From positions 289,501 to 353,500 of the forward strand of contig NZ_LR134338.1 of NCBI RefSeq assembly GCF_900637055.1: a stretch of 64,000 nucleotides of DNA, written 5' to 3'. The notes under the pieces are model-generated. The model had not been told where the DNA came from and searched no databases. It worked only from the letters and a program-made list of their open reading frames with translations. How positions within the stretch are numbered: position 1 is the stretch's first letter; each line of letters opens with the position of its first letter. The translations under genes and the position numbers were made by a program. This DNA comes from Brevibacillus brevis (GTDB lineage Bacteria > Bacillota > Bacilli > Brevibacillales > Brevibacillaceae). Of the stretch, positions 39,416-48,662 are shown piece after piece.

Positions 39416-39432
39416 AAATGAGGTTATCTTCG

Positions 39433-39747
39433 ATGAACGACTTGAAGCCGCAGCTAGAACAATATGAGAAAAAATTCAAAGCTCTTGCTGATCAAAAACG
39501 ATTAGAAATCATGTATGAGCTCTGCCAGAGAGGTAAAACCTGTGTCTGTGATCTAACGGAAGTATTTGATATGCCGCAATCTAAGTTATCGTATCATCTC
39601 AAGATCTTATTAGAGGCCAACCTAATCACGAAAGAGACAAAAGGCACATGGAGTTACTACGATCTAAATGATGTGGAAGTCAACCACCTGTTATCGGAAG
39701 AGCTTTGTTGTATTTTCAGGAAAACAGGTAAAGGAAGCTGCTGCTAA
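39433..39747 (+). CDS. arsR: Arsenic-responsive repressor ArsR
   Basis: This encodes 104 residues from ATG 39433 with GAGG upstream. It is a winged-helix ArsR/SmtB protein: FKALADQKRLEIMYELC, the metalloid motif CVCDL with Cys37 and Cys39, and the recognition helix MPQSKLSYHLKILLEA. A Cys-rich C-terminus (ELCCIF, GKGSCC) may add ligands. It represses the operon until As(III) binds; three identical dyads flank the gene. Confidence 0.94.
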   Translation: MNDLKPQLEQYEKKFKALADQKRLEIMYELCQRGKTCVCDLTEVFDMPQSKLSYHLKILLEANLITKETKGTWSYYDLNDVEVNHLLSEELCCIFRKTGKGSCC

Positions 39748-39764
39748 TTTTTTTTAAACCTTAT

Positions 39765-39780
39765 ATCAATTTTTTTTGAT
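39765..39780. promoter_or_regulatory. Third ArsR operator, between arsR and arsI
   Basis: ATCAATTTTTTTTGAT is the exact reverse complement of the two operators upstream of arsR. It lies in the 66-base gap before arsI and may act as a roadblock or control a second start. Confidence 0.75.
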
Positions 39781-39813
39781 TAACTTTATTAAAATTTAGG
39801 GAGGAACACGAAA

Positions 39814-40251
39814 ATGAAGTATGTTCACGTTGGGATTAACGTCACGAATTTAGAGAAATCGATTGATTTCTATCAAAAAGTGTTTGGAATAGAGCCGGTA
39901 AAGGTAAAGACAGATTATGCGAAGTTCTTATTGGAGAACCCAGGGCTTAACTTTACATTAAATGTTCGGGACACCGTTAGCGGAAATCAAGTGAATCACT
40001 TCGGATTCCAGGTTGAAAGTACAGAAGATATCGAAGCTCACAAGGAAAGGCTAGAAAAGGAAGACTTTTTCGCACGTGACGAGATGGATACGACTTGTTG
40101 CTATGCCGTTCAGGACAAATTTTGGGTTACTGATCCCGACGGTAACGAATGGGAGTTCTTTTACACAAAGGCCGATAGTGAAGTTCATAAAATTCAATCC
40201 ACATCCTGCTGCACAGAATCCACTACTGAAGTAAGCAGCTCTTGCTGTTAG
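39814..40251 (+). CDS. arsI: ArsI/CadI-type VOC metalloenzyme (C-As lyase family)
   Basis: This encodes 145 residues of the vicinal-oxygen-chelate fold ([21 protein letters not shown], then NHFGFQVES and [12 protein letters not shown]). Metal ligands would be His5, the His of NHFGF and a Glu in NEWEF. The vicinal Cys pair at 95-96 (TTCCYAV) is the organoarsenical site of ArsI C-As lyases. The tail has further Cys pairs (STSCC, SSSCC). It probably breaks the C-As bond of trivalent methylarsenicals; CadI-type metal binding is the alternative. The equivalent gene in the B. subtilis skin ars operon is yqcK. Confidence 0.85.
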
Positions 40252-40264
40252 GACGAATAGGACC

Positions 40265-41308
40265 ATGAAACAACTATCATTTTTAGATCGCTTCCTGACT
40301 CTCTGGATCTTCCTTGCCATGGTTATTGGGATTACTGTAGGAACTTACGTTCCAGCTTTTACAAGTGGCTTAAATAGCCTACAGATTGGTACAACATCCA
40401 TACCTCTCGCGATCGGCTTAATCGTGATGATGTATCCCCCTTTAGCAAAGGTTCGTTATGAAGAGATGGGGCGTGTATTTAAAGACCGAAAGGTTCTTTT
40501 GTTATCCCTTATTCAAAACTGGGTGATTGGCCCGGTTTTGATGTTTTTGTTGGCCATCGTTTTCCTGCCAGATAAGCCAGAGTATATGGTTGGTTTGATT
40601 ATGATTGGCCTGGCACGCTGTATTGCCATGGTCATTGTGTGGAATGACCTAGCAAAAGGAGATACAGAATACGCTGCTGGCCTTGTGGCATTCAATTCTG
40701 TGTTTCAGATGCTCTTCTTTTCGCTATACGCTTATGTTTTTGTCACCCTCATTCCGGAATGGATTGGCATGCAGGGGGCTGTCATTAGCATCACAATGGC
40801 GGAAGTTGCAACATCGGTGTTTATTTACCTGGGGATTCCTTTTCTTGCAGGGGTGCTTACGCGCTATTCTCTCGTAAAAGTAAAAGGCCGGCAGTGGTAT
40901 GAGAAAGTATTCATTCCGAAAATAAGTCCTATGACACTGATTGCCTTACTCTTTACCATTATTGTTATGTTCTCAACACAAGGACAAAACATCGTAAGTG
41001 TACCACTAGATGTCGTGCGAATCGCGATTCCACTTCTCATCTACTTCATCCTCATGTTCTTTATTTCTTTCTACATGGGGAAGAAGATAGGTGCAAATTA
41101 TCCCGTTACTACGACCCTCGCTTTTACGGCAGGCAGTAATAATTTTGAACTAGCGATCGCAGTGGCAGTCGGTGTGTTTGGAATTCACTCAGGTGCCGCC
41201 TTTGCAGCCGTCATCGGTCCTCTTGTTGAAGTACCGGTTATGATTGCATTGGTAAATGTAGCGTTATGGTTCAAGCGCAAATATTATGCCGACTCATCAT
41301 GTAAATGA
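40265..41308 (+). CDS. acr3: Arsenite efflux permease, ACR3 family
   Basis: This encodes 347 residues with about ten membrane segments. [38 protein letters not shown] (with the essential Cys) and [20 protein letters not shown] are diagnostic of ACR3. It exports As(III)OH using the proton gradient. It lies between arsI and arsC, 13 bases from the former. Confidence 0.95.
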
Positions 41309-41327
41309 AGCAAAAAAGGAGAGCATC

Positions 41328-41732
41328 ATGATCAACAAAAAAACCATCTACTTTTTATGCACAGGAAATTCCTGCCGTAGTCAAATGGCAGAAGCATGGG
41401 GAAAGAAGAACTTAGGCGAGACTTGGAATGTCTTTTCCGCTGGGATTGAAGCACATGGTGTCAATCCAAATGCCATTCAAGCGATGAAAGAAGTTGGCAT
41501 AGACATTTCCAGTCAAACATCTGATGTCATTGATCCTGATATATTGAACAATGCGGATCTCGTCGTAACATTATGCAGCCATGCAGATTCCATTTGCCCA
41601 ACCACACCCCCACATGTAAAACGCGTCCATTGGGGATTTGACGATCCGGCAGGGAAAGAATGGCCGGAGTTTCAAAGAGTGCGTGATGAAATCGGAGCCC
41701 GTATAAAGAAATTTGCGGAGACAGGGGAGTAA
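41328..41732 (+). CDS. arsC: Arsenate reductase, thioredoxin-coupled
   Basis: This encodes 134 residues from ATG 41328 (AAAAGGAGAG upstream), chosen over an earlier in-frame ATG at 41286 inside acr3. The low-molecular-weight phosphatase loop is LCTGNSCRS with nucleophile Cys11, Arg17; the redox pair Cys83/Cys90 lies in [11 protein letters not shown]. It reduces arsenate to arsenite for ACR3 export. The order arsR-arsI-acr3-arsC is that of the B. subtilis skin element. Confidence 0.96.
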
Positions 41733-41814: not shown

Positions 41815-42642
41815 GCCAACGATCTCGCATTAAGGTTCGCACAATGGACTGAGCCAGCGAAAAAACCATTTTCGGACGGACGATACGTCTTCGAACCAAA
41901 GATTGATGGTCATAGATTGATTCTGACGCGAAGTAACGGAGTTACACGCCTATTTACGCGTCACAATAACGATGTAACATCGAAGTACCCCGAACTCATA
42001 ACAGATGGACCTGATATCATCCTGGACGGCGAATTAGCGGTCATGGACCCAGACACAGGAATCCCTGACTTCGAGCAGACAATGAAGAGATTCCAGTCGA
42101 AGAAATCGCGGTTGCTGATATCTTACGTCGTGTTCGATATCCTACATTATGATGGAGCTGACCTTAGAGGACTGACTCTAATGGAGCGCAAAGCCGTCCT
42201 GGACCGAGCGATACTGGATACCCCAACCATGAGCAAAATCGCATACATTGACGGTCAAGGCGAGGACTTATGGGATGCAATTGTTGCTCGAAACATGGAG
42301 GGTATAGTCGCAAAGCGTAAGGATGGACGATACCATTCGGATAAACGGACAGACGATTTCATTAAGATCATCAACTACTGCTATGCAGACGTCCATATTG
42401 CTGGCTGGCGTAAGGGAGACTTCTGCTGGCTTGCACACTATAATGGTCGACCAGCAGGCGTGATTAAACTTGGCGTGCCACCTACTCACAAGCAGGCGTT
42501 TTACGGTGTTGCAAAGTCCATTGTCACTGGTGAGGATCGCGATTTCGTTTACGTGCAGCCGCAAATAAAAGCACGCGTCAAAATGTGGAACTGGACAAAG
42601 AGCGGCATGCTACGCTCACCAGTATTCGTCGATTTATTTTAG
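41815..42642 (+). pseudogene. ATP-dependent DNA ligase (SPbeta YoqV-like), start codon lost
   Basis: The frame is open from 41815 and encodes a nearly complete ligase of about 275 residues. The active-site motif FEPKIDGHRLI holds the adenylated Lys; ILDGELAV (motif III), VVFDILHYDG (motif IIIa), GMEGIVAKRK-like NMEGIVAKRKD (motif IV) and DFIKI follow. No ATG, GTG, TTG or CTG lies in frame between the stop at 41812 and the active-site Lys; the first TTG (41917) is behind it. So the 5' end is broken, perhaps by the event that placed the ars operon next to it. The product is inactive unless an unusual start is used. Confidence 0.75.
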
Positions 42643-42653
42643 CTAGCTAGTAA

Positions 42654-42684
42654 AAACCCGTCCCTGTTTTGAGGGGACGGGTTT
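42654..42684. terminator. Bidirectional terminator
   Basis: AAACCCGTCCC / GGGACGGGTTT (11-bp perfect stem) lies between the ligase and the converging secreted-protein gene; T-runs are present on both strands. Confidence 0.88.
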
Positions 42685-42701: not shown

Positions 42702-43130
42702 CTACTGCTTTTCCCACTTGCCGTTTTCCAGTACGAACTCTACAGCCGTGTTCGTTCCATCCGCGTACTGTCTCAGTACATACAGACTATTGCCGGACTC
42801 GTGCAGATGGATTTGAGGCATTTTATCGCCCACTGAAAGATTACTAGTCAGTTCTTTGACCTGTTTAAATAGGTCTTTGTCCATGTTCCAAACGTCAACT
42901 TTTTCAATTCGCGCGTATCCAGACAAGTCTATGCCAATGTCGGCAGCGATCTTGTTAGCTCTTTGAGTGAGTAGATTATCGAAGGCTATGGCTTCCTTTT
43001 TCGCCTCTTCGTCGCTCGACTTGCTGATGGCGACATACGACTCAGCGCGAGTGATCGCAGCCGACGCGCTATTTCCAATAAGCAGCAGCGCACCGATACT
43101 CGCGAGGGCAAACGTGGCCATTTTTTTCAT
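42702..43130 (-). CDS. Secreted protein, last gene of the RRNPP cassette
   Basis: This encodes 142 residues from ATG at 43130, with TAGGGGGAG upstream. A signal peptide is clear (KKMATFALASIGALLLIGNS, cut after SASA near 24). The mature part is a small mixed helix-strand protein (HLHESGNSLYVLRQYADGTN ... AVEFVLENGKWE). No family is recognised. It lies 30 bases behind the second pro-peptide gene on the same strand, so it is probably co-transcribed with the receptor. It could be an output or an accessory exported factor. Confidence 0.7.
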   Translation of the reverse strand: MKKMATFALASIGALLLIGNSASAAITRAESYVAISKSSDEEAKKEAIAFDNLLTQRANKIAADIGIDLSGYARIEKVDVWNMDKDLFKQVKELTSNLSVGDKMPQIHLHESGNSLYVLRQYADGTNTAVEFVLENGKWEKQ

Positions 43131-43159
43131 ACTATTACACTCCCCCTAAAACTTAGCTT

Positions 43160-43282
43160 CTACCAGTCGGGGTCTGCGGTGGTAATGATGGCTCTTTTCC
43201 AATCTGGTTCAGCGTTTTGCGGGACGCTAACAAAGGTGAATAGAAGGACAAAAGCTGCAAGTCCAGACAACCATTTTTTCAC
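43160..43282 (-). CDS. Candidate quorum-sensing pro-peptide 2 (internal AEPDW, ends ADPDW)
   Basis: This encodes 40 residues from GTG at 43282; GGGGAGG lies eight bases upstream. The layout is that of exported signalling pro-peptides: short basic start (MKKW), hydrophobic core LAAFVLLFTFVSV and polar tail with AEPDW (residues 24-28) and, at the very C-terminus, ADPDW. The neighbouring pro-peptide ends with AEPDW, so the motif occurs three times in 78 residues. The gene lies downstream of an RRNPP receptor on the same strand. Export and proteolysis to a short peptide is the known route in this family. Confidence 0.72.
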   Translation of the reverse strand: MKKWLSGLAAFVLLFTFVSVPQNAEPDWKRAIITTADPDW

Positions 43283-43330
43283 AGTCTGTACCTCCCCTAT
43301 TAAATGGATTCAAGCAGTGTTTTGCGACAA

Positions 43331-43447
43331 CTACCAGTCCGGTTCGGCCCCATACCATATGACTAGGTGTTCCGGTTGACTTAGTGACATTGACGGAATT
43401 GCTGTGACGAGGAAAGCAAACGCGAGTATGAGTAGCTTCTTTTTCAC
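43331..43447 (-). CDS. Candidate quorum-sensing pro-peptide 1 (ends AEPDW)
   Basis: This encodes 38 residues from GTG at 43447; GGAGGTG is 5-6 bases upstream, and the receptor stop is only 12 bases away. Start MKKKLLILAFAFLVTAIP is a signal sequence; the tail ends WYGAEPDW. The C-terminal AEPDW matches the motif of the second pro-peptide. Mature peptides of Rap/PlcR/AimR systems are 5-8 residues from just this position. The size is below common gene-finder limits, so it would be missed in automatic annotation. Confidence 0.75.
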   Translation of the reverse strand: MKKKLLILAFAFLVTAIPSMSLSQPEHLVIWYGAEPDW

Positions 43448-43459
43448 GAGCAGCACCTC

Positions 43460-44719
43460 CTATTCCTTTATGCCCTCATTATGGCAGAACCTCTCAATTA
43501 TTTCCATGTTTTCGAAAGAAAAAGCCCTTTGTTGCAGCCGATGATGTTTTAGGAAGAGTCCCACGCCCTCTATAACTTTGTCGGACGCCCCTAGCTGTCG
43601 GTAGTAGCTGATACTTTGCAGAAGGCTCTCGAACCCGTCCTCAACGTGTCCAATTGCGAGCTGACATACCCCTTTGCGCTTGTAGTATCGCGCAGCCTGT
43701 TTGATCCGGTACGGGTGAGCGAGGATGTCCGAAGGTAAAAACTGATTTTCAGAGTCGATCAGCTCTTTTATTAGGGCATCATTTCCACTCTCTAAGTAGA
43801 CTTCTAAAAGATCGCTGACAATGGTCACGCGGCTGTCCTTCCCTGCTTCTGCGAGACACTGTTCGTAGAGTCTCATTGCATCCTCGTGCTGTCCCTGTTT
43901 CGCGTGCAGAAGCGCTCGCAGATGATTCTTTCGATAGTCTGCGTATTCGCTCTTTTCATACTCTTTTAGATACAGCTCGGCTAGGATCAGATCGCCCAGA
44001 CTCAAGTATGAATTGACAATTGAAATGAAGGCCGAGGCTTTGGGCTTATTGTCCGTACCGTCTTCGCGAATCCCTTTCCCGCAAAATTCGATACTCTCCC
44101 CGTAGTAGCCTAAGATATACGCGTGTGTCCCTATACGATAGTAAAAGGTAATGCGGTCAATCGGCAGTAGCAGATCGGTGTAGTGCAGCAATTCCTTTCC
44201 TCTGCGGTAGGTTTCCTCAAACCGCGAAAAGTCGTCCCTTTCGAGCATGTAGCGATCATAGAGGCTCTTTCCGAGATATAAAGGGACGCCGTGCTTCCTC
44301 GCGTAATCAATAATCACCTCGTGCAAGGCCAGTATAACGGCTCGATCCTTCGCGTCGTTTGTCGCCTGTAAAAGGTGATCCAGCGCTAGAAAAGTGTCCA
44401 TTTTCGGCGTTTCCAGTAGCTTTAAAGCCACCTGTTGAACCACTGGCGGGTAATTAAGCTCAATCGCCTCTTTCAGGAGTATTTGAAGTGTCGCAGGTCT
44501 TTCCGTGGTGCCTAGATACGAGGTGATTACATCGACATACGGAATTTCGAGAGTACTTGCAATCTTTTTCCATTGGGAAAACCCTGGTCGCTTTGTTTCC
44601 CCTGACTCGATCTTGGAAAGTGCTGCCTTGCTAATATCTGTACGCTCTGCAAGCTCACTCCACGATATATTTTTCCGTTGTCGGTAGGCATGGAGTAATT
44701 CTCCGATTTCTGTGAACAT
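43460..44719 (-). CDS. RRNPP-type quorum-sensing receptor (HTH-TPR)
   Basis: This encodes 419 residues. An N-terminal Xre-type HTH (residues ~8-62; ISWSELAERTDISKAALSKIE) is followed by nine or more TPR-like helix pairs to the end (e.g. KHGVPLYLGKSLYDRYML, GYYGESIEFCGKGIRED, LILAELYLKEYEKSEYADY, KGVCQLAIGHVEDGFESLL). This is the layout of PlcR, NprR, PrgX and AimR receptors. Two tiny exported-peptide genes follow on the same strand. Thus it probably senses their mature peptide and controls transcription. Family length (about 300-425) fits. Confidence 0.88.
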   Translation of the reverse strand: MFTEIGELLHAYRQRKNISWSELAERTDISKAALSKIESGETKRPGFSQWKKIASTLEIPYVDVITSYLGTTERPATLQILLKEAIELNYPPVVQQVALKLLETPKMDTFLALDHLLQATNDAKDRAVILALHEVIIDYARKHGVPLYLGKSLYDRYMLERDDFSRFEETYRRGKELLHYTDLLLPIDRITFYYRIGTHAYILGYYGESIEFCGKGIREDGTDNKPKASAFISIVNSYLSLGDLILAELYLKEYEKSEYADYRKNHLRALLHAKQGQHEDAMRLYEQCLAEAGKDSRVTIVSDLLEVYLESGNDALIKELIDSENQFLPSDILAHPYRIKQAARYYKRKGVCQLAIGHVEDGFESLLQSISYYRQLGASDKVIEGVGLFLKHHRLQQRAFSFENMEIIERFCHNEGIKE

Positions 44720-44741
44720 AGGAGCCCCCTAAAAAAATTTA

Positions 44742-44766
44742 TCGTTTTTATTTTTTTTTATGATAA
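44742..44766. promoter_or_regulatory. Possible operator of the RRNPP receptor
   Basis: TTATC (about 44,740) and GATAA (about 44,762) form an inverted repeat around an A/T-run of some 18 bases, 20-45 bases upstream of the receptor start on the minus strand. Such spaced dyads are used by PlcR-like dimers; evidence is weak. Confidence 0.3.
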
Positions 44767-44931
44767 CACACGAGTGGGCAAATGGTAATAGTTTCCTTTC
44801 CGATATTTGTAAGCAACTAAAATCCTGCATACTGTGATATAATTCCACCCTTAAAATAGATGCTCTCCCCGAGTTACTTCTCTTGCAGCTTCATACATAA
44901 ACACTCCTTTATTCAAGACAAGAGGGATGTA

Positions 44932-47624: not shown

Positions 47625-47665
47625 TTTTAGTATTCATGATTGGCTATTTGTGGAGCGGGCAAAAC
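47625..47665. other. Right prophage-host junction (attR region)
   Basis: Up to the TGA at 47637-47639 nothing resembles ComFA; from TTG 47640 on the frame reads LAICGAGKTELLF, the ComFA Walker A strand-loop. The crossover must lie within this short stretch. The core itself cannot be fixed without attL, which is outside the window. Confidence 0.75.
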
Positions 47666-48662
47666 AGAGTTGTTATTCCCTTCTGTTACAGAGGCACTTG
47701 CTGCTGGCGGTCGCGTTTTGATTGCGACACCTCGAAAAGACGTCGTGCTGGAGCTGGCTCCGCGGATTCAGCGAGTCTTTCCAGGGGCTAAAGTGATCGC
47801 CGTCCACGGTTCGAGCGCGGAGAAGTGGGAAGAGAGTGACATCACGATTGCGACCACGCATCAGGTCATGCGCTACCATCGGCGTTTTTTGCTGGTGGTT
47901 CTCGACGAGGCCGACGCGTTCCCTTACCATAATGATCCTATTTTGTATCGAGCTCTATCCAGAGCGGTGAAAACGAATGGGAAGCTCCTCTATTTAAGCG
48001 CGACACCTCCGGGATATTTACAAAAAAGGCTCGTTAGGAAAGGGCGCTCAACCCTAGGCTCGTCTGGCGCGATACCGCTCTTCTCTGATACGCATGTTCT
48101 GTTGCCCGGGCGCTATCATGGTGCTGCGCTGCCAGTCCCCAAGATTCTCACGGTACAGCGCTTACATAAGCGCGTTCAGAAAAAACAAATCGTGGCATCG
48201 TTAATAGAAGCGGTAAGTACTTCTCTGAATGAAGACCGACAAGTTTTTGTTTTTGTCCCGCGAGTTGATGAAATTGACAGAGTGCTATCGTTTCTTCAAA
48301 AGTGGCTTCCTGCTCATGCAGGGGAGATGGCCGGTGTCCATGCGGCAGACCCTATGCGGGAGGAAAAGGTACTCGCGTTTCGAGGAAAACGTTATACCGT
48401 CATGGTGACGACTACGATTCTGGAGCGGGGTGTGACTATACCGAAGAGTGATGTAGTAGTGGTAGGTGCGGAGGCACCCGTTTTTGACGAGGCATCTTTG
48501 GTGCAAATAGCAGGGAGAGTGGGGCGGTCACTCGATGATACGACGGGTAGGGTTCTATTCTTGCAAGCAGAACGCGCTACTTCTCCAAAGCGGGCTGTCA
48601 GACAGATTTCACAGATGAACAACTTGGCTCAAAGGCTCGCGGAACAAAGAGGCCTTTCATGA
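47640..48662 (+). pseudogene. comFA: comFA, 3' portion (DNA-uptake helicase split by prophage)
   Basis: ComFA is the membrane-associated helicase that drives transforming DNA into the cell. B. subtilis ComFA has about 463 residues; here 340 remain, starting exactly at Walker A (CGAGKTELLF). DEAD motif (VVLDEADAFPY), SATPPG (motif III) and QIAGRVGR (motif VI) are intact. Missing are the N-terminal ~120 residues with the Zn-binding Cys cluster. The TTG at the start has no ribosome site and follows a stop codon, so the fragment is likely silent. Excision would rebuild the gene. It overlaps comFC by an ATGA. Confidence 0.92.

Follow-up and report, generated by a model that had tools for sequence, protein, structure and literature searches.

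The 64,000-nt stretch of DNA from a soil Brevibacillus analyzed here (the window, in which all window coordinates are given) contains a four-gene cassette on the minus strand, running from 44719 to 42702, in which a receptor gene (419 amino acids, aa) is followed by genes for propeptide 1 (38 aa), propeptide 2 (40 aa) and a secreted protein (142 aa). The cassette is carried by a prophage and located in its accessory right arm, and the four genes probably form one transcription unit. Propeptide 1 starts at a GTG twelve bases behind the receptor stop, has an AGGAGG ribosome site and ends in GAEPDW; an alternative in-frame GTG three codons upstream would give 41 aa, and the orthologues in genomes G005 and G020 use the 38-aa start. 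Propeptide 2 has a GGGGAGG ribosome site, an internal NAEPDW and the tail TADPDW. An earlier note on this DNA had correctly described the prophage location, the gene order, sizes, strand and 12-base spacing, as well as the GTG starts, strong ribosome sites, AEPDW and ADPDW ends and the AEPDW inside propeptide 2; its description of the propeptide genes as nested was wrong, as the two stand in tandem. A promoter-like block upstream of the receptor is conserved in five orthologues, and the near-dyad in this region is a possible autoregulatory operator. Of 85 upstream regions compared, only those of the six closest loci contain the dyad, and no operator common to the whole receptor family was found. 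At the other end of the unit lies a likely intrinsic terminator, a hairpin for which the terminator scan listed only the plus-strand form.

Table 1. Features of the cassette and its surroundings, in window coordinates.
Feature	Position	Strand	Basis
RRNPPA-type receptor, 419 aa	43460..44719 (start 44719)	-	HTH_3 E=1.3e-11, TPR_2 9e-5, phrog_32768 2.8e-87
Propeptide 1, 38 aa, MKKKLLILAFAFLVTAIPSMSLSQPEHLVIWYGAEPDW, GTG start 43447	43331..43447	-	sequence; orthologues in G003, L001, G005, G020
Codons of presumed mature signal GAEPDW, propeptide 1	43334..43351	-	0 amino-acid changes, 4 silent-only variable codons, five orthologues
Propeptide 2, 40 aa, MKKWLSGLAAFVLLFTFVSVPQNAEPDWKRAIITTADPDW, GTG start 43282	43160..43282	-	sequence; two-repeat type also in G003, G019, G015
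Codons of internal pseudo-repeat NAEPDW, propeptide 2	43199..43216	-	internal (E/D)PDW kept in G003, G019 (NVDPDW), G015 (HADPDW)
Codons of presumed mature signal TADPDW, propeptide 2	43163..43180	-	relatives' tails TADPDW, TVDPDW, FADPDW
Secreted protein, 142 aa, ATG start 43130, last gene of unit	42702..43130	-	internally deleted form of a 235-241-aa protein
Putative promoter TTACCA-17-TATCAT with near-dyad TATCAT-N14-ACGATA	44740..44788	-	promoter scan
Likely intrinsic terminator CCCGTCCC-loop-GGGACGGG-TTTTT, 3' of secreted-protein gene	42652..42681	-	read from sequence
ATP-dependent DNA ligase fragment, prophage-side border of cassette slot	41917..42642	+	DNA_ligase_A_M 5.6e-22; same neighbour in G005 comFA prophage
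comFA C-terminal half, right prophage border	47640..48662	+	340 codons vs frames of 655-711 in most genus relatives

Small open reading frames (ORFs) ending in PDW were rare: a six-frame survey of 11 stretches (about 262 kb) yielded 2,427 ORFs of 25-70 aa, of which only seven had this end, and all seven were propeptides directly behind window-type receptors. When propeptide 1 was compared codon by codon between the window, G003, L001, G005 and G020, the last six codons had no amino-acid changes and four variable codons, all silent, against 20 of the other 32 codons variable in amino acid (Fisher p=0.007). The propeptide-1 tail is under purifying selection. Given that all seven PDW ORFs are propeptides and that the propeptide-1 tail codons vary silently only, these tails go beyond chance. 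Propeptide 2 kept both its internal and its terminal (E/D)PDW in G003, G019 and G015, while the remainder diverged. An unconserved PDW C-terminus in homologous loci had been named in the earlier note as grounds for refutation; the tail is conserved, and the claim survived.

The receptor has an N-terminal helix-turn-helix (HTH; about residues 5-68) followed by an all-helical domain resembling tetratricopeptide repeats (TPR), for which Pfam matches are weak (TPR_2, 9e-5). Its AlphaFold model is all-helical, with a predicted local distance difference test score (pLDDT) of 90.9, and comprises the HTH and about 18 further helices, a count of helices and not of single repeats. Among solved structures, the best matches of the model included NprR (Z 19.0), RapF (Z 18.8; Rap proteins lack an HTH) and phAimR (Z 16.9). 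Given that TPR repeats are common and that unrelated TPR proteins score equally high, the fold match alone is weak evidence. Judged from the sequence, the RRNPPA assignment of the receptor is carried by gene order and propeptides: beside the HTH and TPR-like peptide-binding domain stands a small gene encoding a basic-hydrophobic signal and a conserved C-terminal signal. An RRNPP-type receptor with secreted-type propeptides had already been recognized in the earlier note, and the domains, the model, the matches to solved structures and the propeptides behind related receptors agree with it. Residues 2-409 match phrog_32768 (PHROGs v4, function unknown; E=2.8e-87); our results suggest that this group is an RRNPPA receptor family.

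Receptor relatives at E below 1e-60 were present in 16 of the 25 other sampled genomes of the genus and in several more of the same family, and the window genome (G000), which is Brevibacillus-like with B. porteri as its nearest named match (97%), has three further full-length relatives. Others are encoded by Brevibacillus and Paenibacillus plasmids and by the Brevibacillus phages Sundance and SecTim467, with the N-terminal part also in Jenst. Searches by class, phylum and one genus for Paenibacillus-type relatives returned only HTH matches or none outside the family. Directly behind nearly every relative across Brevibacillaceae stands a propeptide with a basic-hydrophobic start and a tail of the type (E/D)PDW, DPEW, DPG(Y/H/W), PEPW or DNPxG. 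The DPG tail occurs in 33 of 76 labelled receptors, the window clade being the (E/D)PDW variant. In a midpoint-rooted FastTree phylogeny of 85 receptors, those with PDW tails share one clade with those ending in DPEW. Tail class tracks the receptor phylogeny: it required 12 changes on the tree, whereas 1,000 shuffles of the labels never required fewer than 31. In Sundance (L080) and SecTim467 (L081), the family receptor is followed by a propeptide and then a spo0E-like gene, and SecTim467 also has an AloR-type receptor.

A group of RRNPPA systems in Paenibacillaceae, termed cluster 8 or subfamily 08, has been described computationally (PMC10075063, 2023; PMC12700828, 2025); it has been placed beside AloR, as its sister, in a clan that also includes AimR, and a DPG motif is widespread in its peptides (PMC12700828). 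One AloR-AloP and one cluster-8 system were reported on a plasmid of B. laterosporus LMG 15441 (PMC10075063), and we found on pBRLA33 of this strain one window-family receptor (peptide ..DYDPGY) and one AloR-type receptor. The cassette fits cluster 8 / subfamily 08, a membership that we infer from the published text and the pBRLA33 correspondence. As described for subfamily 08, receptors with HTH and multiple TPR occur on chromosomes, plasmids and phages, in our case in Brevibacillaceae genomes, in Brevibacillus phages and on Brevibacillus and Paenibacillus plasmids, and the tails behind window-type receptors are rich in DPG at the family level. The window clade differs in having (E/D)PDW instead of DPG, and two propeptide genes, one with an internal pseudo-repeat. 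The earlier note suggested that a system with two peptides and a PDW tail on such a prophage may be undescribed; the class itself has been described, and the cassette is a variant of a described peptide-signalling family, not a new kind of system. Its new features are the (E/D)PDW code, the pairing of one receptor with two propeptide genes, and its place in a prophage slot that in a relative is filled by an AloR/Spo0E cassette.

AloR-AloP of Paenibacillus polymyxa (PMC7425212, which lists Brevibacillus) shares with the window cassette the order of receptor, propeptide and downstream gene and an HTH with TPR, the homology being remote and at the profile level only (HHalign 98.7%, 14% identity). 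Alo peptides such as SHGRGG are different, and no Spo0E gene stands behind the window cassette, an adjacent spo0E-like gene being common but not universal in Alo systems. Identity with AloR was dropped as a candidate: against the AloR-type plasmid receptor of P. polymyxa ATCC 842, BLAST gave no meaningful match (best E 0.026 for this single pair, in scattered pieces), leaving only remote profile similarity. Several signals from one system have precedents. In phage Rap-Phr systems (Phr3T, Phr105), tandem propeptides yielding several pheromones have been demonstrated, in which the C-terminal pheromone recurs as internal pseudo-repeats (PMC11343458). For P. polymyxa, the gene names aloP10-alpha/-beta can be read as several signals per system (PMC7425212). 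The Phr propeptides, often on mobile elements, resemble propeptide 2 in their internal pseudo-repeats; however, theirs are repeats in one propeptide, whereas the window has two propeptide genes plus an internal repeat.

The best explanation, to which we assign a probability of roughly 0.6, is a prophage-carried RRNPPA quorum-sensing cassette of the subfamily 08 type, in which two propeptides would be secreted, signal to the receptor and control their own unit. After export by Sec, both would be cleaved outside the cell to short C-terminal signals of about GAEPDW and TADPDW, perhaps also NAEPDW from the internal repeat. An oligopeptide permease would bring these signals back into the cell, where they would occupy the TPR groove of the receptor. 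Peptide binding would alter the receptor's hold on DNA and so tune its own promoter and the secreted effector, tracking the density of carriers of the same or closely related cassettes. We infer these steps of export, processing and import, the binding of both tails by one receptor, the direction of regulation and the secreted protein as target; the proposed control of the unit, and perhaps of the secreted protein, is modelled on Alo13 of P. polymyxa, in which spo0E, the neighbouring gene, is activated by AloR and silenced by the peptide (PMC7425212).

The secreted protein is a candidate target of the signalling system. Its long form is found in L001 and L187 (G003:C60), and its gene stands 3' of the propeptides in L001 and G003, with a decayed copy in G019. 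Pfam searches of the protein encoded at 42702-43130 gave no family, including no SpoOE-like match, and its fold was left uninterpreted because the structure model was weak (pLDDT 64.5, best Z 6.0). Several observations weigh against the explanation above. The window protein is internally deleted, no gene for it lies 3' of the cassette in G005 and G020, and in G003:C60 (L187:1035-3191) a full-length copy adjoins the same ligase behind a GHKL/SpoB-type sensor kinase, with no receptor. It may thus not be a dedicated target, and given that it lacks the segment modelled as an N-terminal beta domain in the long form, the target may be decaying in the window. In addition, the family is not inherently tied to prophages, as many chromosomal members have no recognisable phage neighbours; each propeptide could act on a receptor of its own; and we found no data on expression, processing or binding for the receptor family. 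In L157-L159, distant relatives of the secreted protein adjoin an extracytoplasmic function (ECF) sigma gene (hidden Markov model match, L157) and an anti-sigma-like gene, the C-terminal part of which appears similar by eye.

The right border of the window prophage is the C-terminal half of comFA, and the N-terminal half lies about 1 Mb away, across the origin (G000:C1:6034188-6035696). Beside this N-terminal half is a second prophage, about 91% identical to and largely colinear with the window prophage, with a serine recombinase at the comFA side and cwlD-mrp-gerD-kbaA-pdaB (named from translations) on its other flank. We take these five genes, from gene order in B. subtilis, to be the neighbours expected behind rpsI. 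A tyrosine integrase is encoded behind the ribosomal-protein operon, at the left end of the window prophage. We gave up the reading that a single prophage had simply inserted into comFA, given the position of the N-terminal half at 6.034 Mb beside the second prophage and the genes expected behind rpsI on the other flank of the latter. The simplest reading is that a comFA prophage and an rpsI/cwlD prophage have recombined in a reciprocal inversion; an assembly error between the two similar prophages would look no different. The claim of the earlier note that the prophage splits a competence gene is thus only half right: comFA is indeed interrupted, but only one of the two halves borders the window prophage, which is one product of the apparent inversion.

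In the corresponding arm, the second prophage has its own family receptor with a propeptide tail RVEPDW (L111:11080-12330), to which a scan of viral contigs returned no relative. Genes for SNase-Excalibur and Mrr-type nucleases lie near this receptor. In the comFA prophage of G005 (L104:498-3489), the slot by the same ligase is occupied by an AloR-type receptor together with a Spo0E-like gene and secreted proteins. The same AloR type, likewise with a Spo0E-like gene and secreted proteins, is present on viral contig L201:1-4138, where the propeptide ends in ..THGAGG, close to the tested AloP13 SHGRGG. The window-type orthologues in G005, G020, G015 and other genomes have no recognisable phage neighbours, and the cassette is therefore found in both chromosomal and phage settings.

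Given that both prophages of the window genome carry a family cassette near one end, with tails GAEPDW/TADPDW and RVEPDW, an arbitrium-like role may be considered, in which receptor and peptides set the lysis-lysogeny choice of the prophage and report how many neighbours are lysogens. Like AimR-AimP of Bacillus phages, the cassette pairs a phage-borne HTH-TPR receptor of similar overall fold with a secreted short peptide; AimR entries align over the whole receptor model (Z 15.6-16.9), Brevibacillus phage genomes encode relatives, and subfamily 08, assigned to the same clan as AimR, has a DPG peptide motif in common with AimR systems (PMC12700828). However, the receptor scored 19.7 bits with the NCBIfam AimR model NF038310, below the cut-off of 70, the neighbours of the cassette in the accessory right arm are a ligase gene and cargo, and the unit ends with a gene for a secreted protein and not for an AimX-like regulator (no search was aimed at AimX-like elements). 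Moreover, the Sundance and SecTim467 relatives pair with spo0E genes, and many relatives are without phage neighbours. An arbitrium-like role therefore seems unlikely to us; control of lysis-lysogeny by the cassette is possible but unsupported, and a role in sensing lysogen density is a hypothesis.

The arrangement of propeptides varied between orthologues. The order 1-2 is found in the window and in G003:C54; in L001, propeptide 2 is lacking and the long secreted protein comes directly after propeptide 1; G005 and G020 have propeptide 1 only, and G015 the two-repeat type only. In G019, a two-repeat propeptide 2 precedes a decayed remnant of propeptide 1 (MNKGNLIIWYGAEPNW, GAEPNW). In G003:C8 (L188:940-1899), the receptor is broken and both propeptide ORFs and the secreted-protein gene are still open. 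Independently of these, a distant member in G014 (L191:2028-4498) carries a pair of propeptides (..YSDNPGH, ..YGTDPGW), behind which stands a gene for an LprI-like lipoprotein. Given these orders 1-2 and 2-1, the single types and the independent pair in G014, duplicated or recombined propeptides recur in the family.

The same variation could mean that only propeptide 1 is cognate and that propeptide 2 is a foreign or decoy signal gained by recombination and meant for other receptors, such as those of the G015/G019 type. Propeptide 2 begins with MKKWLSGL, as does the only intact propeptide of G019, and its tail TADPDW resembles TVDPDW/FADPDW of G019/G015, while the receptor and propeptide 1 match G005/G020; the reversed order in G019, the lack of propeptide 2 in L001 and the open peptide ORFs beside the broken receptor of G003:C8 would also fit. 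However, the tails differ by one conservative E/D change and the first residue, easily within one pocket, and given that the G015/G019 receptors are a sister lineage in the same clade, ancestral co-occurrence with differential loss is equally likely. We regard separate receptors as quite improbable. A decaying cassette, in which a short-lived tandem duplication is carried by a defective prophage and the two peptides have no selected role, would account for the shortened secreted protein, the reshuffled prophage halves and the broken copies in G003:C8, G000 (4.166 Mb) and G019, but it is very improbable given the intact receptor and propeptide ORFs in the window and G003 (receptors 97% identical), the silent-only variation of the propeptide-1 tail codons and the propeptide 2 repeats kept in G003, G019 and G015.

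Returning to a cassette in which both propeptides signal to the adjacent receptor, a bolder and rather doubtful extension is that two propeptide genes would provide one receptor with up to three near-identical (E/D)PDW signals, that the cassette would have been put together and reordered by recombination (orders 1-2, 2-1 and 1 only) in an exchangeable prophage slot alternatively holding AloR-Spo0E, and that the related tails of co-resident prophages (GAEPDW/TADPDW and RVEPDW) would hear or jam each other. So far, subfamily 08 has been described only computationally, with a proposed shared ancestry with arbitrium. This locus is a concrete, testable member of it, with a defined tail code and two signal genes on one receptor, in a genome with two related prophages whose cassettes carry different tails. 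It would allow the study of signal-receptor divergence, of whether duplicated signals bridge such divergence, and of whether phages swap quorum-sensing cassettes as modules.

As further prophage cargo, an arsenic operon lies at window positions 39418-41732, with genes for an ArsR-type regulator, a glyoxalase-like protein, an SBF/ACR3-type transporter and an ArsC-type phosphatase.
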